DNA from: Prosapia bicincta
Lineage: Eukaryota > Arthropoda > Insecta > Hemiptera > Cercopidae
Assembly: GCA_036971475.1 (NCBI GenBank)
Contig: JBAIZL010000001.1
Location: forward strand, 151,927,544-151,991,543
Direction of reading: 5' to 3'
Length of the DNA: 64,000 nucleotides
Part shown: positions 1 to 64,000 of the stretch, in pieces
How the letters are laid out: each line of letters opens with the position of its first letter
How positions within the stretch are numbered: the stretch's first letter is position 1
Program-made: the position numbers and the translations under genes
Notes under the pieces: model-generated
What the model was told of the DNA's origin: nothing
The model's database searches: none
What the model saw: the letters and a program-made list of their open reading frames with translations, nothing else

Positions 1-501
1 ATTTCTGATATTTGAAACGAGTATGAACTTGTAGAATTACATAACAATGACTGAAGGGCGGCTTTCGAATCCGATAGGATGCATATTTTTGAATTGCCCT
101 TTAAGGTAGGTCTATTTACAAAGATAAAATGCAATTAATTCCTACTTATTACTACCTCCCTCAATTTTCTCTGACTGTTAAGGATAATCCTTTAGAACAT
201 TATTTATATTTGATTCCTTTTACTAGAATTCCAAAAACCAAATCAATATTTTTTTCAAACTGCTGTTCAAGTATTATAAATGTAGTACTACTGGACCTCA
301 TTGAGTGTTAGTTTTTTATTTTCTTTATTCAATCGCTAAAATAGTTTGACAGATGAAGATACATGTTAAAATACCTCAGTCTTTATACCTCAGTATTACA
401 CAGATGTACTCAAGTAATGTGTTATTGTTTTCATTTGTTCCAAGATATTATAATCTGTGTAAACTGTCTTCCCTAGCTTAATTTATAAAGTTTCAACTTA
501 C
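1..501. other. intron of the carbonic anhydrase gene, no feature seen
   Basis: AT-rich sequence downstream (minus strand) of exon 3. I found no exon matching the next carbonic anhydrase segment and no recognisable repeat. Confidence 0.5.
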
Positions 502-4880: not shown

Positions 4881-4913
<33 letters not shown>

Positions 4914-5131
4914 GAAGTTAATATATTACTATGTAAGTAATTTTATCCACCATTAAGTGCAATAATTTTACCTTGAGTGATGAGGCACCTTTCGGTCAAT
5001 TGACCGAAAGGTGCCTCATCACTCAAGGTAAAATTATTGCACTTAATGGTGGATAAAATTACTTACATAGTAATATATTAACTTCATAAAGTCAGTGCAA
5101 CGGAAAAACAATGGATAACGTTAAATATCAA

Positions 5132-5213
<82 letters not shown>

Positions 5214-8200
5214 TGTATATACATATACGCCAAATAAAAGAATCCTTTTTTGCCTTATACTATTAGAATATTTTAAAAATTAACCTTGCTATTGTTAAAT
5301 ACATACAATTGATAATCCCTTAATAACCTAAACTGCAATTTATTCTTCTAGGTTTTTTTGTCCTATGTCTTTTTGATTTGGTTTTTAGAAATAAATGGAA
5401 GACAGTTTGATAACTTGCTTCAGCTTAAATTGAAGTAAATTTTATAAAAAATTATAGAGAGATAATGTTTTTAACTGAACTTGCCAGTTGGAAACATTGA
5501 TAATGATTGTTGAATATAATCGAAGTCACATCTAAGAACTTGTAATAACAAGATAATTTATTTAGTCTTTTAAAAAAGTTTCAAAAATGATTATTTTATA
5601 TACATATACAATATACAAACACATTGTTTTGAGTATATAAGCTTTACTAATTTTTAACACTTTTGCATAGTAATTACATAATTTATATAAACTTACCATT
5701 ATGAGAAGAATATCCATAAATAGGCTCACTTAAATATCTATTTTTCCAAATATTGTGATTTTTAATAAAATCTTTAATTGGGTTCCAAGGGCAATCCAAA
5801 ATTTCCAGGCTAAGAAATACTAAAACAGACAGTAATATAAGAGTTTTAAATTGAGACAATATTCCTTCACAAAATATTTGTGTACAAAAAATAATAATTT
5901 TTTAGTGACCTAAGCAGATATTTTAGCCATTATGTTTATATTTCTTATGTTGTTTTAAGCATCTTGATTTCACTGATTAAATCATAAGTAATTATTTTGT
6001 AACTGTTTTTATTTTTGGTAGCTTTAATTCTTATGAATTAAAGTTGATTTTAAATATTGCAGTTTATAGTTACATATTTAGAAGATGACCTGCAAAATCT
6101 TATTAAATTAAGATGTAAGGGATTTGTGTGCTGGTTAAATAATTACTGTCTTAAATCTTCAATTAAAACAAATCAAACATATTTTATTTAGCAAAAAAAT
6201 TATAAAATTACAAACCAAAATACATATTTCTGAAACATTGCGTTAGTTACTGATTTGTGAATATTTAACAATTTACTTATTTATGTAGAAATTTATATAT
6301 TAATAAATCAATGGCTGAAATGACTCTGTTTTTGAGTTTGCTTGCTTGCTCTTTTCATAATTAATTCTTACAATTTAAACTGAAAACAAATGCACCAAAT
6401 AATGCACAAATTACATTTAAATACGCATTGAAAAATTTAAAGTTTATGAATTTTGTACTAAACTGTTTATGCATTTAAATTTTGTGATAGTTCACCAAAG
6501 TTTGAATTTGTTCACTTAGCTGTTTTAACAAAGTGTAGCCTCGCATCCCTCTATTGGAAAAATCCTCAAAATATTCGCTTGGTCATGATTTTGAAAAGGC
6601 TTCAGTAACTCCCGGTTCCATCTTCGTTCTTGGAGACGTGCGCTGTCTTCTACCTTCTGATTACAAGAAATTAAAAATGACTGTTACATTAAAAATTTAA
6701 AATAAAACATTTCCTCGCTCTTGGAGACAACCGTTGCCTTCTACATCCTGATTTCAAGAGAGTTAACTATGGCTAGCAAGCAAGCGCTCTAATTATCGTA
6801 CATCGATTTCCGCGCATACTTTGGTTTCAAATTATTCCAACAGAGACCACTACCAACCAGAGATTTGATTTATTTCTAACAAATCACAATTTTTTGATTT
6901 AGCTCTATTATTGTTACATTTTTTAATACATTCTCGTTCGTTTTCTGAAATTTCCTATATAACACCATCTAAAATGTGTTACAATTTGACTTTAACACTT
7001 GTAATATTTACAAATATGAGTTACGGTCTGAGTTGACAATGGGGTACATCTCCCAAAACGGCCGCCCTCAACAAATATAAGTAGGGGCTACTATAGGCAA
7101 GTTTGTATATATTTACAAGTGTTTTAGTGAAAACTAGTAGCTCATTTGAAGATGGAATCAACAAATATAATTATTTGAAGAACTAAGTTACAACTATTAA
7201 CTTACTATGCATCATAGTAATAGTTTTCACTTAGTTCTTTAAATAATTACTTATGATATAAAAATAATTTCACTATTAATCTTTCTTATTTATTAATTCA
7301 CTTGGTGAAATCACTACCTACTGATAGTTTTCAATAGACGAATTTTGCACTTGTTCAGTAGAATTGCTCAATGCAGTAATAATGAGAAATATCAGTAAAT
7401 ATTATTTACTTTTTTCCTTAGTGAATTAATAAATAAGTATTATTCAGAATCCTCTATAAGTTTTAATTTGTCTTAGTTTGTACTTTTCATTTCTAGCTGG
7501 CGCTTTTAAAATCTTAATTATCAAAAACTGAGTGGAAAATTAAATAAAATAATAAATTTATTAAAAACCACTTTTTATAAACTAATTTACAGTAAGAATT
7601 TACTTTATTAAGTAAACTTTAAAAATTCTATTACTCAAAAGAGTTTCTACGAGGTCCGAAAAATACGCGGACTGAGGTCATAAAAAAAAGTACTTTATTT
7701 GGAAGTTACACGTCTGGGTTTCCTTCAAAGTACTCTCCTCCCCAACACACACACTTATCTCAATGGTGTTTACACTTGTTAAAATAGTCCTGGTACGCTT
7801 CTTTTGTGATGGCTTTCAGTTCCTTCGTCGCATTTGCCTTAATCTCCGAAATCGTTTCAAATCTTCTTCCTTTGAGGGTTTTTTGAGTTTTGGGAATAAG
7901 AAAAAGTCACAAGGAGCGAGGTCAGGTGAGTAGGGTGGGTGGGAAAGAACAGTTTGGCCAAAAACTCATGAGTTCTGAGTGCTGAGTGAGCTGGAGCGTT
8001 GTCGTGATGGAAAAACTGGTTATCACTTCTCCACAGTTCTGGGCTTTTGCGTCGGACGGCGTCCCTCAGGCGTTTCAGTACTTCAATGTAGGTAATCTGG
8101 TTGACTGTAGAGCCTTCAGGGAGGTACTCGTAGTGAACAACACCCTTAGCATAAAAAAAAACTGTCAGGATCACCTTCACATTCGACCGAACTTGGCGAG

Positions 8201-9186
8201 CTTTTTTGGGTCTTGGGGACGTTTGACTCACCCATTGGGATGATTGGACCTTCGTTTCAATGTCATAACCATACACCCATGATTCATCACCGGTTATAAT
8301 TCTTGACAAAAAGTTCTCATCTTCATTTGAACGATCAAGCAGTTCTCGAAAAACCCTGACGCGATTGGCTCTTTGGTCGTCGGTCATCAGGTATGGCACA
8401 AATTTCGCAGCGACGAGGTGCATTTTCAATTTTTCGGTCAAAATCTCTTAACAAGATCTAACTGATATCCCACTCTCTTCTTAAAGTTCCTTAATGGTCA
8501 GATGTCGATTTTCACGCACCAGGGTGTTGATTTTACAAATACTATATTTTTTAATTTGATGTAGAAGGAAATATGAAAGTATTTTTTATATATTGACATA
8601 AATTGTAAGGCTCATTTTGTTCATTTTTATCTCTGCTATCACACTGAAAAGTTTGTTTATAGGAACTGCTGTTGAAATCTGACAAATAGCGTCTTAAACA
8701 AGATAAAAACCTTATTGCTCTTTGTTGCGATTAAAACTTTAAATGTTTTTTTCTAAAAATAATTACAAGGTAAAATTAAAGTTCATATTCATTAGTTATT
8801 CTAAATAAATATGTGAAGGTGAGAGGTGGGAGGAATTACTGGGGCCGAAGGATTGGGGCACAAATCATTATTAGGGCGTCGGCATCAGTAGTGGTATAAT
8901 CTGCACCGATGCTTTTTCTATGTTTTGACAAACCATATTATCTTTCTTCATTCATCTGATTTGATTAACTTTACTATCATTTATTAATATCGCATTCCAA
9001 TTGATAATATTTGTATCACATTACTATAGTTTTACTGCATACTCTCTCACTAGCTATCTTGGAACTTTAAATAACACACTGTACTGAAAAAATGAAATTA
9101 ACATAATACTTACTTAACAGTATGAAAAAAAATAGTAATAGCAAGACGGTAGAGTCATCCAAAAAATCTTTTATCACCTCACCCAT
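502..9186 (-). CDS. alpha-carbonic anhydrase, 5' half of a split gene (3 exons; continues past left edge)
   Basis: Alpha-carbonic anhydrases hydrate CO2 to bicarbonate with an active-site zinc. Joining 9186..9114, 5819..5697 and 669..502 on the minus strand gives one open frame of 121 codons plus one base; both junctions are phase 1. Family signatures appear in order: YGYSSHNGPSTW (the usual WGYSxxNGPxxW), QSPINIDT, and LQNNGHT. The three zinc histidines normally follow the last of these and would lie in exons off the left edge, so catalytic competence cannot be judged and a carbonic-anhydrase-related protein remains possible. The N-terminus has a short polar stretch and then about 18 hydrophobic residues, suggesting a signal peptide or type II anchor. 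Introns hold a Tigger relic, a palindrome and a mariner. The family call is strong; enzyme activity is inferred. Confidence 0.85.
670..2989. other. carbonic anhydrase intron 2, left part, no feature recognised
   Basis: AT-rich intron sequence with short A and T runs. The short open frames here (for example 2350-2538) have no recognisable motif. No terminal inverted repeats or tandem arrays stood out. Confidence 0.5.
2990..4330 (+). pseudogene. decayed pogo/Tigger-type DNA transposase
   Basis: A plus-strand transposase broken by many stops and frameshifts. Readable pieces come in the order expected for Tigger/pogo. There is a CENP-B-type helix-turn-helix (KKRHDLSLKEKLDL near 3040, then QLGVSQPLLCKILKN near 3130), a second DNA-binding part (DGWFNR near 3365, DFTAAEDWLQ near 3435), and DDE-domain remnants: VYNAYQRGLYYHTL near 3520 (family NADETGLYYR), LIDNYTAHNN near 3730, and QPCDQGIIKNLK near 3815. 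A C-terminal acidic tail follows near 4150-4260. The first catalytic D has been replaced (YQRG for DETG). It is an old insertion in carbonic anhydrase intron 2. I could not fix its terminal repeats with confidence. Confidence 0.8.
4331..4879. other. intron sequence, no feature recognised
   Basis: AT-rich sequence between the Tigger relic and the poly(A)/(TA)n tract. It may include the Tigger 3' end: near 4600 there is GACTACAGTG, which could pair with ACAGTAGTTG near 2835, but the match is short. Confidence 0.35.
4875..4912. repeat. poly(A) then (TA)n tract
   Basis: About 24 A residues followed by TATA repeats. It directly abuts the palindrome that begins at 4911. Confidence 0.95.
4911..5134. 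repeat. PLE-leader palindrome inserted in (TA)n, copy 1
   Basis: An almost perfect palindrome with arms 4911-4999 and 5000-5088, centred on CGGTCAATTGACCG. To the right it continues without a partner through a segment that reads ATGGATAACGTTAAATAT and ends at ATCAAGAA against (TA)n. The same sequence with the same two junctions recurs at 62534-62767. A related leader precedes the PLE remnant at 62768-63890. Read outwards from the centre, each arm shows GACCGAAAGG, then TGCC, then TCATCACTCAAGG. This matches the 3' half of a hammerhead core (stem II, GAA, a very short stem III). Confidence 0.85.
5134..5214. repeat. (TA)n microsatellite
   Basis: About 80 bp of TA dinucleotides directly abutting the palindrome. 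Confidence 0.97.
5215..5696. other. intron 2, right end, no feature recognised
   Basis: AT-rich intron sequence leading to the donor of carbonic anhydrase exon 2; nothing else recognised. Confidence 0.45.
5697..5819 (-). CDS. carbonic anhydrase exon 2 (YGYSSHNG)
   Basis: This 123-base exon has a TCTGTTTTAG acceptor and a GTAAGT donor. Two bases complete a codon from exon 1, 40 codons follow, and one G remains. It ends in IYGYSSHN, and its last G joins GT of exon 3 to make the glycine of NGPSTW. That spliced signature is the main proof of the gene model. The segment before it, including CPWNPIKDFIKNH, has no motif I recognise and may be a stalk between the membrane segment and the catalytic domain. 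Confidence 0.8.
5820..7019. other. carbonic anhydrase intron 1, with a ~55-bp direct duplication
   Basis: AT-rich intron. The only structure seen is a diverged direct repeat of about 55 bp (6622-6680 and 6713-6770). Both copies run from CTTGGAGAC through CTTCTAC and TCCTGATT-like sequence to AAG and AG, with starts 91 bp apart. This part is less AT-rich than its surroundings. No coding frame is recognised. Confidence 0.5.
7020..7445. repeat. foldback/MITE-like repeat, shared with 27005-27148
   Basis: Bases 7020-7160 resemble 27005-27148 (both contain GTCTGAGTTGA, ACATCTC, and AACTAGTAGCTCA- or ACTACTAGCTCA-like strings in order). Two inverted repeats follow. One has arms 7168-7200 and 7218-7249, sharing AAGAACTAAGT. 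The other has arms near 7280-7305 and 7420-7440, built on TTATTTATTAATTCAC. Taken together this looks like a composite non-autonomous element. Its class is unknown. Confidence 0.55.
7650..8535 (-). pseudogene. 5'-truncated mariner transposon with broken transposase
   Basis: Mariner moves by cut-and-paste at TA sites. On the minus strand the remnant starts inside the N-terminal helix-turn-helix (VRENRHLTIKEL) and runs through RIITGDESWVYGYD (first catalytic D), SSQWVSQTSPRPKKARQVRS, and FHHDNAPAHSALRTHEFLAK (second D). It then shifts frame near 7940 and continues as YSPDLAPCDFFLFPKLKK (third D). Two stops interrupt the N-terminal part. The 3' terminal repeat begins with TACGAGGTCCG at 7648. 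The 5' end is missing: about 885 bp remain of a usual ~1.3 kb. It sits in carbonic anhydrase intron 1. Confidence 0.92.
8536..9113. other. carbonic anhydrase intron 1, right end, no feature recognised
   Basis: AT-rich intron sequence. A short GC-richer patch (8815-8920) shows no frame or repeat that I can identify. Confidence 0.45.
9114..9186 (-). CDS. carbonic anhydrase exon 1 (start codon, hydrophobic N-terminus)
   Basis: The first coding exon has ATG at 9186 and encodes 24 codons plus one base. The polar start MGEVIKDFLDDST is followed by a run of L and F residues that continues into exon 2. The donor is GTAAGT (minus strand 9113-9108). Seven bases upstream of the ATG lies TTTGTTTCAG, a good acceptor, so the start codon is probably in the second transcribed exon after a 5' UTR intron. 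It was chosen because its phase (one base left over) fits exon 2 exactly. It is less certain than exons 2 and 3, because no family motif lies in it. Confidence 0.65.
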
Positions 9187-26318: not shown

Positions 26319-27148
26319 TTGATACTATGAGCAAGCAACGAATTCCAACTTAAATTTGATAAAATAACTTTCCATGTAGAAACAAATTCTTATAGATATA
26401 GCTCCAGGACATTTTTTTGAACATTTTATTCAATTTTCTCAGGCGGTGGTACGAACCAAAAAGATTGCCTATATTAATTAAAACAACCTCTCACCTCAAA
26501 TTAAACAAATTTTATTTTAACTTTATGTACCTTTCGATTACAAAGTAATCATCTTCAGAGGTATTTTTTTTTACAAATAACTCTGGTTAAAAAGATTGCT
26601 ATTTATGTAGTTTCCAAGTAAAAATAATTGTGTTTGTTTTGCAAACAAAATTTCACCTCATGATTTAGAAATTTATAAGGATAAATATTAAAACTTGTCA
26701 CGACTATATGAAGAACTAATAGGAATTGTAAAGAAATAACTGTGCTCTGCAACCTACATGAAACTTATAAACTCAAGATTTCTCGATAAAAGAGACCACT
26801 ATCTTATACTACACTTCAATACAGTTACATAGTAGCGTAAGAACTAAGTTAAAGTTTATATTAGCCTATGAAAACATTCTTAAACATGTCCTAAAGCTAT
26901 TTTGGCAAATAATTTTAAAAAACTTGTTTTAAATAAATAATAAATCAATAATAATATTAATTAATTTTTTTAATAAATACTTGACTAAAATCAATTATGT
27001 ACTTGTTTTTGTCTGAGTTGAAAATAGGACACATCTCTGAAAACAGCAGTTCTAAATATACATTAAAGTAAGTGTGTTATAGATAAGTATAACACTAATA
27101 TTTGTTCAAATGTTTTTATTGTAAAACTACTAGCTCAAAGTAAGATGG
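26319..27148. other. AT-rich stretch with a PLE-like terminal string and a dispersed repeat
   Basis: On the minus strand near 26560-26500 is CTCTGAAGATGATTACTTTG followed by TAATCGAAAGGTAC, a perfect 6-bp stem between CTGAAGA and GAAA. This resembles the hammerhead-like strings of the PLEs nearby, but TACCT and AGGTA pair directly, leaving no room for stem III. Bases 27005-27148 match 7020-7160. No gene seen. Confidence 0.45.
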
Positions 27149-29092: not shown

Positions 29093-29370
29093 TCCTTCAC
29101 GGTTGGAAAAATATGATGAGTAGTTAATGGCTGGAGTACATCCGTTCATTCTGCAGTGTATAAATTCGCAGTTCTGACGTTTTGCTAGAATCTCATCTAG
29201 CATTGACTAGGTGAACCCAACAACAGTTGAACTCTGTTCGCTCTTCAACTGTTGTTGGGTTCACCTTGTCAATGTTAGATAAAATTCTAGCGGAACGTCG
29301 GAACTGCGATTTTATTCACTGCAGAGTGAACGGATGTACTCCAGATAATAACTATTCATCATCATCATCA
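29093..29370. repeat. foldback with ~130-bp arms between (TA)n and (CA)n
   Basis: The left arm (about 29118-29231) and right arm (about 29237-29365) are inverse copies at roughly 85% identity by eye. Shared strings include GGAGTACATCCGTTCA, CTGCAGTG, CGCAGTTC, GCTAGAAT, and GTGAACCCAACAACAGTTGA. The centre is GAACTCTGTTCGCTCTTCAA. Frames from both arms give related peptides (LAKRQNCEFIHCRMNGCTP and LAERRNCDFIHCRVNGCTP). That could mean the parent sequence was coding. Family unknown. Confidence 0.8.
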
Positions 29371-29632: not shown

Positions 29633-29639
29633 TACATAT

Positions 29640-30000
29640 AGATTTTTTGGACTAGGAGACTGACAGACTTACCTTGGTAAGAGTCCAGTCTGTAGTCTTG
29701 AAATAGAAACACATAAAAGCACTTAACCAATGATATATTTCAACGGCACAGTGGTCTTTGTCAATCAAAGAGAAAACACAAAAAGAAATATGAGAGTATA
29801 TTTCATTCTCTCATATTTCTTTTTGTGTTTTCTCTTTGATTGACAAAGACCACTGTGCGGTTGAAATATATCATTGGTTAAGTGCTTTTATGTGTTTCTA
29901 TTTCAAGACTACAGAGTGGACTCTTACCAAGGTAGGTCTGTCAGTCTCCTAGTCCAAAAAATCTAAATAATCTTTACCAACCAAAACTAACCTAAATATA
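29640..30000. repeat. large palindrome related to PLE family B termini
   Basis: Arms of about 160 bp (29640-29803 and 29815-29972) are nearly identical inverse copies around a short centre near 29808. The outer ends read TTTTTGGACTAGGAGACTGA, CAGACTTACCT and GGTAAGAGTCCA. These match the ends of PLE-B at 60309-62473 (GGACTTGATAGGAGACTGA, CAGACTTACCT) and a nested copy at 62079-62272. It is probably two inverted PLE termini without the body. Both sides abut (TA)n. Confidence 0.85.
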
Positions 30001-30855: not shown

Positions 30856-60224
<29,369 letters not shown>

Positions 60225-60245
60225 GTAACTTGATTAAAAATATTC

Positions 60246-60276
60246 ATTATATATATATATATATATATATATTTTT
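60246..60276. repeat. (TA)n tract
   Basis: TA repeats 22 bp after the exon 9 donor, leading into the PLE-B left end. Confidence 0.95.
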
Positions 60277-60426
60277 AGGTTAGTTCTAGTAGAGCTTAAA
60301 GCTTATTTAGGAATTTTTGGACTTGATAGGAGACTGACAGACTTACCTAAAGGCAATAGTCCAAAACTGCAATCTCTTGGAAATAAGCACATATAAAACA
60401 CAATAAAACACTTAATACACTATTAT

Positions 60427-60463
60427 TTGAAATATTTCGATCAACATGATCTTCTTCAGTCAA
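60427..60463 (-). ncRNA. hammerhead-like motif in PLE-B left inverted repeat
   Basis: An inverse copy of the motif at 62319-62355: core CUGAAGA (60459-60453), stem II GAUCA/UGAUC, then GAAAUAUU and UCAA. Confidence 0.5.
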
Positions 60464-62010
60464 GAAAGAGAAAAAAACAAAACAAAAGATTGAAGTGAAC
60501 CACAGATGTGTATAAACATCCAAATGTCACAGATTCACAGATTTATAGTTTATGATATAGTGCTATATGTGATATGTGTAGAAATTGTTATATGTGAATC
60601 GTGTAAAGATCGGTTACTTGAAACTAGATATTAAAAGTCTGTCAGAAGGAAGGTAATGGAGCTGTTAAAAATGGTAGAAGTTAGGGGGAAGTTAAAAGAA
60701 GTTTTATCTGATGTTGAGGTTAGGAGGCTCTCTAGATTTGGTATACCACTGGTATGATAACTCCCATCTTCTTAATTCTGAAGAGTTGCAATCAGGGGGG
60801 AGGGCTTTAATTATTTTGGTGGTATAGCAATCATTGAAAGAGATGATGTTGTGACTAGCAGCGTGTTGAGCGGTTGGCCTGTCTATGTTCATGGTTCCAA
60901 CGTCATGTCTGTGGCCATTCATTCTGATGCTCAGACTATCCGTGGTAAGGCCTATGTACTGTGCCGGGCAAAATTTACATTGTAACTGGTATATTACATT
61001 ACTGGATGTACAAGTATGATGACCCTGAATCTTGAAGTCCACACTGGTTGCTAGGCTATGGAAACTATTTGTTGGGATGTGTATTGGACATGTCTTGCAT
61101 CTTGGTCTATTGCACGGAAAGGAGCCGTGTGGAAGTTTGGGCGGTTTTTCAGTACTTGGATCTGGTAATTTTGGATGTACTAAAATACTTTTTAAATTGA
61201 ACGGTTGTCTGAACCAAATATGTGGTGGATTTGAGAAAAGATCTTTGGTGTGGGCGGAAGCTTGAAGAATCTTGAAGCCATCCTTTAATATTTTGTTCAG
61301 CTTCGTTAGGCCTGGATGGTAATCTGTAACTAAAGACGGTTTGTCCTCCATAGGTGGTCTGGGTACATCAGATGACTGAGCCAAGCGGATTTGATCCTCA
61401 ACAAGTTGTTTAGGGTATCCTCTTTTTTGGAAAGCTAGTAAGGTCTTTCTATTAAAGTCTTCCAATGCTATATCGTTGGAACAAATTATCTTGCCCCTGA
61501 TTGCCTGACTGTATGGTATGGACCTTTTTATATTCATGGGGTGGTTGCTATTGAAATGTAGGTATTGTAGATGGTTCGTCGGTTTGATGTGGACACCTGT
61601 ATAGATATTCTCATCTCTGATAGTTACATCTACATCCAAGAAGGTGATTGTTGCTGCAGACTTCTCCCAGGTGAATTGAAGTGTAGAGCATAGTGATAAG
61701 CCCTTCAAAAAACTTTCCAGTGTTGAGATTCCCTGTGTCCAAATTACGAATATATCGTCTATATATCTGTACCAACAATGGTAGGTGTGTTTGAGTTTTT
61801 AGGAAATCTGTTTCGATATTACCCATGTACAGGTTTGCGTGCGACGGGGCCATCCTGGTACCCATTGCTGTTCCTTTTATTTGCAAATAATTCTTTCCCT
61901 CAAATTGAAAATTATTCTTTTCAAGAATGAATTTGGCGAGGTGAACTAGGAAAGGTGTAGTAGGGTAAGGGTTGTCTGAACGTTTGTTGAGGAAAGTCTC
62001 AGAGAGCTTC

Positions 62011-62041
<31 letters not shown>

Positions 62042-62078
62042 TTATATTTGGGTTAGTTTTGGTTGGTAAAGATTATTT

Positions 62079-62272
62079 AGATTTTTTGGACTAGGAGACT
62101 GACAGACTTACCTTGGTAAGAGTCCACACTGTAGTCTTGAAATAGAAACACATAAAAGCACTTAAACAATTGAAATATATCATTGTTTAAGTGCTTTTAT
62201 GTGTTTCTATTTCAAGACTACAGTGTGGACTCTTAATAAGGTAAGTCTGTCAGTCTCCTAGTCCCAAAAATC
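62079..62272. repeat. palindrome nested in PLE-B
   Basis: Arms of about 90 bp share TTTTTGGACTAGGAGACTGA, GTAGTCTTGAAATAGAAACA and CATAAAAGCACTTAA. It is a shorter version of the palindrome at 29640-30000, lacking the middle. A short (TA)n tract (62012-62029) precedes it. Confidence 0.85.
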
Positions 62273-62318
62273 TATATATATGTTTTTTTTTTTTTTTTTT
62301 TTTTTTTTGTTCTCTTTC

Positions 62319-62355
62319 TTGACTGAAGAAGATCATGTTGATCGAAATATTTCAA
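62319..62355 (+). ncRNA. hammerhead-like motif in PLE-B right inverted repeat
   Basis: UUGA, core CUGAAGA (62323-62329), stem II GAUCA/UGAUC with a 3-nt loop, GAA (62344-62346), A15.1, a 2-nt loop, U, U17, then UCAA pairing with UUGA. The core consensus CUGANGA...GAAA is met. Stem III is a single pair and stem I only four, so activity as a monomer is doubtful. Confidence 0.5.
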
Positions 62356-62469
62356 ATAATAGTGTATTAAGTGTTTATTGTGTTTTATATGTGCTTATTT
62401 CCAAGAGATTGCAGTTTTGGACTATTGCCTTTAGGTAAGTCTGTCAGTCTCCTATCAAGTCCAAAAATT

Positions 62470-62471
<2 letters not shown>

Positions 62472-62533
<62 letters not shown>
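62472..62533. repeat. (TA)n microsatellite
   Basis: About 60 bp of TA between PLE-B and a PLE-leader palindrome. Confidence 0.97.
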
Positions 62534-62537
<4 letters not shown>

Positions 62538-62767
62538 GTTAATATATTACTATGTAAGTAATTTTATCCACCATTAAGTGCAATAATTTTACCTTGAGTG
62601 ATGAGGCACCTTTCGGCAGTGGTCAATTGACCGAAAGGCGCCTCATCACTCAAGGTAAAATTATTGCACTTAATGGTGGATAAAATTACTTACATAGTAA
62701 TATATTAACTTCATAAAGTCAGTGCAACGGAAAAACAATGGATAACGTTAAATATCAAGAATATATA
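62534..62767. repeat. PLE-leader palindrome inserted in (TA)n, copy 2
   Basis: Same sequence and same two junctions as 4911-5134: (TA)n then TGAAGTTAATATATTACTAT on the left, ATGGATAACGTTAAATAT then CAAGAATATATA on the right. The centre differs by a short insertion (CGGCAGTGGTCAATTGACCG) and one CACC/CGCC change. The copies are 57 kb apart. Confidence 0.88.
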
Positions 62768-63895
62768 TATTAAATATGATAATATGTTTTCTTGTAATAT
62801 AGTTAATAAATCAAAAATATTTCAAAAACAAGAATACTTTTAATGCATATAATATTCAAAACTTTTTGCTAATAAAACAATACCAGCATCTTCAGGAAAA
62901 ATAATTATCTAACAAAATATTCTACAAAAAATAAATCATATGTACTATAAACAACATTAACTTTATGTTTATAAATTTCCATTGTTTCACATATATTCAT
63001 CTTTAATCCTTTGTTTAATTCTTTTATTAATTTCATATTTTCTATTTCAGGAAATTAGTGTCCATTATTAATACAATGAGTAGCTAAATTTGATTTGTAT
63101 ATGTTTGGTTTAATATAAGCGTTAAAATGTTCTTTGTATCTTTCTTTTAATTTCTTTTTTGTTTGTCCTACATATAATTTATTACAAGCTTGACATTTTA
63201 TATTATATACACCATTTCTTTTGTGCATATTATTTTGATTATAGTTATTGTAATTGAGTTTTTAATTTTATTATCAGTTTTGTAAATAATTTGTAAATTT
63301 CTTTCTTTAAATAATCTTGTAATTTTTTATTTCATTACCAGTGGATGTAAAAGTTGTCCAAATTTTTTCTCTCTTATTATGTTATTATTTAATTTATCTA
63401 TAGTTTTTCTTTTATATCAATTTCCTAAACCAATTTGATATATTTTATTTTTCACTTTCTTTTGATCATTCAAGTTTATTGGTATTTTGTGCATTCTATA
63501 TAATAAATTATGTACTGCTGCCATATTTTGGTTATATAGATAATTTGAATAATTTGGTATTATTTGATATGTGTGAGCGGGTTTTCTATACATATTATAT
63601 TTCAATTTTTTATTGTTTCTAGTAATTGTAATATCTAAAGAATTTATTTTATTTTTTTTATTTAAATTCATGAGTAAATTTTATATTTCTGTGTATATTA
63701 TTTATACATTTTATTATTTCGTCAATATTTACGTTATTATATTTTACGTTATCCATTGTTTTTCCATTGCACTGACTTTATGAAGTTAATATATTACTAT
63801 TGTAGTAATTTTATCCACCATTAAGTGCAATGATTTTACCTTGTGTGATGAGGCGCCTTTCGGTCACTTGACCATTGTCGAATCACTGATTACTT
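62768..63895 (-). pseudogene. Penelope-like element family C, apparently lacking the RT palm
   Basis: Minus strand. A leader (63895-63760) matches one arm of the palindromes and includes GGTCAAGTGACCGAAAGGCG, a hammerhead-like half. Then NGKTMDNVKYNNVNIDEIIK and CINNIHRNIKFTHEF follow, which in PLEs come after the YVDD motif. After frameshifts come LDITITRNNKKLKYNMYRKP, MAAVHNLLYRMHKIPI, and the endonuclease NGVYNIKCQACNKLYVGQTK with KKLKERYKEHFNAY (near 63215-63120). No RT palm lies between leader and thumb, so the copy is deleted or from a non-autonomous subfamily. Near 62885 a CCTGAAGATGCTGGT string is a degenerate hammerhead core. Confidence 0.75.
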
Positions 63896-64000
63896 TTTCT
63901 CAATTTTTCTGGTGTGGATGTTCGGTCCGTGGTGTTGGTACTTGTTGACGTCATACACTTTTCCTCTTGAGTCTTGTGTATAATGGTTTTGAATAGTATG
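63896..64000. other. right edge, no feature recognised
   Basis: Short sequence within ATIC intron 9, possibly more of the PLE leader; GC-richer than its surroundings. Confidence 0.35.

Follow-up and report, generated by a model that had tools for sequence, protein, structure and literature searches.

What process placed two copies of one short retroelement end head to head in the genome of Prosapia bicincta? The question is raised by a palindrome (c2) in the 64,000-nucleotide stretch that we analysed (contig JBAIZL010000001.1, positions 151,927,544 to 151,991,543; hereafter the window). Its two 85-nt arms are 99% identical (84/85 positions paired) around a 14-nt spacer, a match that cannot be chance. 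The original prediction held that the axis is stem II of a half-hammerhead and that a snap-back of cDNA at that hairpin would give such a structure. A BLAST search with 62532-62767 against the window returned a second copy, c1, at 4911-5140 (97%), and a half unit in inverse orientation at 63739-63882, which forms part of c3 (Table 1). In both c1 and c2 the left arm ends at TTCATA, followed by (TA)n, while the right arm alone runs on into AAAGTCAGTGCAACGG...ATGGATAACGTTAAATATCAAGAA and then into AT-rich sequence; at the end of the c2 tail, ATGGATAACGTTAAATATCAAGAA is read as the first codons of the element's ORF.

The right arm of c2 reads GACC (62629-62632), GAAA, GGCGCC and TCATCACTCAAGG, the order that had been proposed for both arms; the left arm has this layout only from ..CC onward (..CC GAAA GGTGCC TCATCACTCAAGG). 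The complete hairpin GGTC AATT GACC is present once in c2, displaced toward the right arm, with GGTC at 62621-62624. The 3' half of the hammerhead-like motif continues with GAAA, stem III AGGCGCCT (62636-62643) and the 3' strand of stem I, ATCACT (62645-62650), giving a predicted cleavage position at 62644/62645. Since the non-palindromic c3 has the hairpin GGTC AAGT GACC, stem II exists independently of the palindrome. Neither c1 nor c2 has a complete 5' core; each contains the 3' half twice, and the central 50-67 nt of both fold into a plain hairpin, not into the paired ribozyme halves once suggested for the transcript.

Table 1. Positions of palindromes, units and related element features in the window.
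Feature	Position	Strand	Description
c1	4911..5088		perfect 178-nt palindrome, centre exactly stem II GGTCAATTGACC
c1 tail	5089..5135	+	followed by (TA)n
Palindrome D	29113..29362		older; one arm ~30 nt longer before flanking repeat
Family A' pair A'1	29639..29965		head-to-head; axis upstream of hammerhead-like motif
Family A minimal hammerhead	60422..60459	-	canonical; tail arm
Family A' pair A'2	62074..62278		head-to-head; axis at GAAA of motif
Family A minimal hammerhead	62323..62360	+	canonical CTGAAGA-A-GATC..GATC-GAA-ATAT-T; no-tail arm
c2 no-tail arm	62532..62616	-	outer end ..TTCATA adjoining (TA)n
c2 axis	62617..62630		14-nt asymmetric stretch: CAGT and most of stem II hairpin
c2 tail arm, shared part	62631..62715	+	hammerhead-like 3' half and pLTR
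c2 tail	62716..62762	+	only in tail arm; ends with ATGGATAACGTTAAATATCAAGAA
Decayed PLE coding fragment	62905..63777	-	between c3 and c2; GIY-YIG at 63058-63261 (PF01541, E 2.7e-6)
c3	63739..63887	-	non-palindromic unit, both halves of hammerhead-like motif

Copies of the unit were sought in the window's own genome (2.2 Gb), where 22,704 sites match a 25-base unit pattern with at most one mismatch and none matches the reversed control. The palindrome family (family P) is an EN-containing Penelope-like element (PLE). A 514-aa frame in locus L047 matches RVT_1 (PF00078, E 2.6e-12), with a GIY-YIG motif recognised by eye only, at a place without a Pfam match, and L060 carries a GIY-YIG piece (PF01541, E 2.7e-5). 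Besides reverse transcriptase and GIY-YIG, the family has pLTRs in direct or inverted order with an optional tail and the AT-rich simple-sequence targets of PLEs: most printed outer ends adjoin (TA)n, and a few adjoin (CT)n or other repeats. The coding frames of longer copies stop at or just beyond the hammerhead-like motif. A pLTR-only insertion of such an element is the best explanation of c2. The early reading of the unit as a retroelement end with a hammerhead-shaped layout was supported. Directly after the decayed EN fragment, the minus strand of 62860-62900 reads CTGAAGA-T-stem-loop and then AAAA, likely a decayed hammerhead of another PLE family; the fragment (62767-63740) may therefore not belong to the palindrome's family. 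Another arrangement was seen at L057 (891-1781), where an inverted no-tail unit precedes four direct pLTR units without an ORF, spaced ~180-191 nt, an array that resembles retrozyme-like tandem hammerhead units.

In IMG/VR and GTDB contigs a 24-base unit piece had no exact match; PLE protein searches of IMG/VR and a search with an 84-aa fragment also returned no match. IMG/VR matches to a 16-base piece (17 loci) were discarded as chance, having nothing in common with the unit beyond 22 bases. One PLE was found in a GTDB bin, labelled Deltaproteobacteria (L018): a 4168-nt contig whose 196-nt ends are 99% identical and which holds one permuted PLE unit, probably eukaryotic contamination and a tandem array.

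This contig helped us to judge the hammerhead-like motif. Rfam reported no hammerhead in the window, nor in 60000-64000 at a relaxed threshold, a result that is uninformative because the clean minimal hammerhead found in the L018 PLE escapes Rfam too; microRNA-family matches from the same search were rejected, as they were located on long hairpins and (TA)n. The L018 motif is complete (stem I AUCUC/GAGAU, CTGAAGA-A, stem II GGAC..GUCC, GAA, AUAU, C), and the half motif of the palindrome fits its layout. PLE sequences described in the consulted part of PMC6155905 carry hammerhead motifs, usually minimal, with stem I, GAA and a short or missing helix III; the motifs here are alike in these features, and family A and L018 add one extra base before stem II and UH before stem I. 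A window scan that required stem II directly after CTGANGA gave nothing, whereas allowing one extra base gave three matches, against 0.05 expected from shuffled windows. All three (the two family A copies and site 26558) consist of CTGAAGA plus one extra base, stem II and GAAA; the last lies on the minus strand of 26500-26600 and reads CTGAAGA-T-GATTAC TTT GTAATC-GAAAGG.

In c3 the three-way hammerhead layout is present: stem I (5' strand AGTGAT, 63882-63887), a core of exactly 8 bases (TCGACAAT, 63874-63881), stem II (63862-63873), GAA, stem III and UH before stem I. AGTGAT pairs with ATCACT of the palindrome arms as a 6-bp stem I, and over 5 bp with c3's own strand. The c3 motif scores 16, third in the window after both family A copies, where 0.27 motifs with a score of at least 16 are expected per shuffled window, or 0.42 without the demand for a core match. 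In place of the conserved CUGANGA, the core of the palindrome family is TCGACAA. Of 54 arms that reach the upstream half of the motif, a script assigned TCGACAAT to 46, TTGACAAT to two, TCGACAGT to two and other cores to three, at least two of which are junction artefacts; the one unparsed arm (L062) has TCGACAAT by eye. None of the 54 has CTGANGA, and the expectation that the missing half would be CTGATGA was not supported. GTGATTCGACAATGGTC has 19,935 matches in the genome and its control none. TTGACAA occurs as the core of two family-P arms and stands at the aligned place in most printed rows of family A', whose query itself began there. Relative to CTGANGA, TCGACAA replaces C3 by T and G8 by A together, which would keep the 3-8 pair. 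In Anolis, cleavage depends on C3 and G8 and is partly restored by C3G/G8C, according to PMC11167929; the positions of the palindrome family that align with these two are T and A. The hammerhead-shaped motif of the palindrome family would have a core of the U3-A8 type.

The window holds further PLE families that served for comparison. Family A adjoins the palindrome (60243-62537), and its RT/EN fragment shares 60% identity with a leafhopper protein, which hints at an arthropod host; two pairs belong to family A' (Table 1). Palindrome D, in which no coding part was seen, is possibly a further PLE family. We rejected the palindrome at 37694-37883 (90-nt arms) as a PLE-type pair: its ends are symmetric and it is probably a MITE. 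Its centre resembles a stem followed by GAAA and so mimics a hammerhead half, and such resemblance alone is therefore weak evidence. Other occupants of the window are a frame with a Transposase_1 domain (7857-8441, E 3.3e-18) and a minisatellite of seven copies of a 31-nt unit (59391-59608, 96% matches).

We then compared the outer ends of head-to-head pairs, numbering from the G of GACC (r0). One arm carries a tail of ~46 nt and ends at ~r133; the other ends at a single no-tail point, r86/87. Sample 1, ranked for similarity to the query (the best 40 of 167 candidates scored, plus c1 from the window), comprises 34 head-to-head rows. Among the 28 with both outer ends classifiable, 27 combine a tail end with a no-tail end, one (L059) has two no-tail ends and none has two tails. 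Six rows stayed unclassified: in L026 and L049 one arm has the tail, in L057 one arm has the no-tail end, and in all three the partner arm runs into the ORF; L029, the first pair of L030 and L063 have irregular ends. Sample 2, unselected for palindrome similarity, was drawn from the first 100 listed places of the 25-base pattern, among which we picked by reading 18 neighbouring minus/plus pairs separated by less than 450 nt; L110 holds another pair, a nineteenth row, which is interrupted by the locus end. Here 17 of 18 pairs are mixed, none is tail-tail or no-tail-no-tail, and in L107 one end is irregular. Under independence of end types, mixed pairs would make up at most one half on average, and 17 of 17 would have P <= 7.6e-6. 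In family A' (best 40 of 275 candidates, ranked by similarity), a strict rule classed 9 of 15 rows as mixed and one as tail-tail (L067, with L059 the other exception to the mixed rule), and one row proved to be a family A pair; by eye, the short end of four more rows sits at the no-tail place, flanked by (CT)n or other sequence. Rows representing the same places (L028, L033, L034, L035, L038, L048) were dropped, and the duplicates L050/L052 and two L030 pairs stayed in the rows; P pairs at least 420 nt apart and A' pairs with (TA)9 between the arms were left out of the counts. In all arm-end statistics the two arms of a pair are dependent.

Units without a partner within 420 nt also end at the no-tail point (L029, L032 twice, L043, L054, L055), and this point is therefore a start site in its own right. 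Could the pairs be separate later insertions, or products of recombination, that met head to head by chance? PLEs do target AT-rich DNA, including their own ends, and nested copies are seen in L030, L032 and L059. We nevertheless find this hardly credible: most pairs have few or no bases between their arms, and their end types are almost always mixed.

The position of the axis was far more variable. It lies exactly on stem II in c1, L020, L021, L027, L029 and L032, and the junction falls on the stem I strands in L023, L059 and L062, as would be expected if a tail-primed cDNA folded on stem I, stem II or another hairpin and copied itself, its second strand ending or being cut at the no-tail point. 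In the unselected sample, both arms end inside the motif at 7 of 18 loci and elsewhere at the other 11, and none of the 18 has the whole stem II hairpin at its centre, L098 and L111 coming within a few bases. The identification of the axis with stem II, supported for c1 and c2, does not extend to many of the genome copies, among which the axis shifts. Because the unselected sample lacks axes on the whole hairpin, c1 and c2 represent a minority type that the query favoured. In family A' the arms are more than 140 nt apart in 10 of 14 rows, which places the axis upstream of the motif in those rows.

Of the 36 unselected arm ends, 21 fall within the motif span (r -25..21). Ten lie at its 5' edge (r -25..-19) against 1.2 expected from a uniform distribution over the observed range, an excess that, with paired arms dependent, amounts to an effective number nearer six events. 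This edge reads ATCAGTGAT and contains TCAGT, the arthropod initiator consensus, with a putative promoter role. We infer that the PLE RNA frequently begins here, near r -22 (the A of TCAGT); the axis would often lie inside the motif for this reason. Ribozyme cleavage as the source of arm ends at r 16 (L023, L032, L059, L062, with one at r 17 in L031) is not claimed, as only 2 of 36 unselected arms end at r 15-17. Apparent ends at r -33 and near -272 were also set aside; we take them for breaks against the chosen reference L044 and not for real ends.

Arm lengths bear on how many molecules were involved. The no-tail arm is longer in L024, L030, L050, L058, L060 and L062 of sample 1 and in L097, L108, L110 and L112 of sample 2, with L098 longer by 4 nt; the tail arm is longer in L019, L023, L025, L031, L042, L045 and L061 (ends of L019 and L045 by eye) and in L095, L099, L104 and L106 (the end of L106 uncertain). 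Arms are equal within 4 nt in 12 of 25 distinct mixed pairs of sample 1 and 9 of 17 of sample 2. Arm length is not tied to end type. The extreme case is L060, whose no-tail arm runs to ~r -609, into EN coding sequence, and abuts a tail arm that stops at r -2, a difference of ~607 nt. In a snap-back the tail arm must be the template and can never be the shorter, so the longer no-tail arms (six loci in sample 1, four of 18 unselected loci, and L098 by its 4 nt) do not fit. In L021 and L032, moreover, it is the no-tail arm that has the stem loop in native form, and a precise stop at the very site that also ends unpaired insertions would have to be coincidence. Equal arms in about half of the pairs do agree with a snap-back, as do the axes on stems I and II. 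Given the two different fixed outer ends and the no-tail arms that are sometimes longer, we consider the snap-back at a hairpin, which the original prediction had favoured, unlikely.

Head-to-head PLE repeats have been described before. In EN-containing Penelope elements of the rotifer Adineta vaga, the available portion of PMC3846280 reports head-to-head inverted pLTRs (in one case 37 bp shorter than full pLTRs), junction palindromes, a tail that is optional on one of the inverted pLTRs and a preference for simple AT-rich targets, all of which the Prosapia family shares; the word hammerhead is absent from its main text. The same source ascribes the arrangement to self-priming on an antisense template, in which an antisense RNA folds back at its 3' end and is extended from there. 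Such self-priming accounts for the head-to-head order and the palindromes at the axis. Both arms would, however, come from one molecule, which leaves the different fixed outer ends and the longer no-tail arms unexplained, and we regard it as very improbable here. Unlike in the Adineta account, the pairing rule is counted in Prosapia, and the arm lengths argue for two cDNAs. A second system, Poseidon PAc of Anolis carolinensis, has two internal reverse-transcription start sites that bound the tail, a hammerhead near the ORF start, an AT-rich target and a protein with which both target strands are cut and extended, as set out in the consulted part of PMC11167929, where inverted pLTRs are not treated; the Prosapia family is alike in its tail between two start sites, its hammerhead-like motif near the ORF start and its AT-rich target.

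The features to be accounted for, all read from the sequences of the copies, are fixed but unequal outer ends, a variable axis, arm lengths untied to end type, and the motif with its layout and core. We favour, with a probability of about 0.7, an origin from two cDNAs, primed on both strands of the target from two RNA sites and joined close to the ribozyme, at the 5' end of the RNA. A cut in each strand of an AT-rich target would supply two 3' ends, and both would prime reverse transcription on sense PLE RNA. One cDNA would begin within the next ORF copy, where the tail site lies; its counterpart would begin ~46 nt upstream, at the no-tail site. Each would extend toward the RNA 5' end, often the 5' edge of the motif with its initiator-like TCAGT at the first stem, and short stretches of complementary or filler sequence would join the two antisense cDNAs, on opposite strands, head to head. 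In c1 and c2 the self-complementary strands of stem II would help the cDNA ends to anneal. The presumed setting, target-primed synthesis, is common to this reading and the earlier one. If two such events were joined at their 5' ends, the outer ends would be precise and the centre variable, and a shared RNA 5' end would yield equal arms, as a snap-back equally would. The reading is supported by the Anolis PLE protein, which cuts and extends both strands from two RNA sites (PMC11167929, consulted part).

Several points speak against the two-cDNA reading, apart from the exceptions L059 and L067. About half of the pairs have equal arms, as a snap-back predicts; central deletion of symmetric palindromes could mimic unequal arms, though less easily in L060; and the nearly obligate mix of tail and no-tail lacks an explanation, given that the two strands showed no difference in start site in vitro in Anolis (PMC11167929, consulted part). 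An almost obligate division of labour, in which one strand uses the tail site and the other the no-tail site, with joining at a hammerhead-shaped RNA 5' end, is a tentative proposal that we put forward with some doubt.

In LINE-1 twin priming, too, both target strands prime on one RNA, and an inversion results. The likeness ends there: LINE-1 employs a single 3' end together with an internal site, whereas the Prosapia PLE would use two fixed neighbouring start sites and yields a head-to-head order.

Head-to-head PLE repeats and tails were already known, and their derivation from two cDNAs appears to be new; in the available parts of PMC11167929 and PMC3846280 we recognised no link between inverted pLTRs and two start sites or both-strand extension. 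The pairing rule connects these two in vitro facts. For the completion of PLE integration and the head-to-head order of the repeats, the published guess needs antisense templates, whereas the tail/no-tail rule and its independence of arm length point to two priming events on sense RNA. The more than 22,000 unit matches of the palindrome family offer material for a direct test. If the reading is true, the importance of the ribozyme fold would lie in joining at the RNA end, and not in cutting alone.
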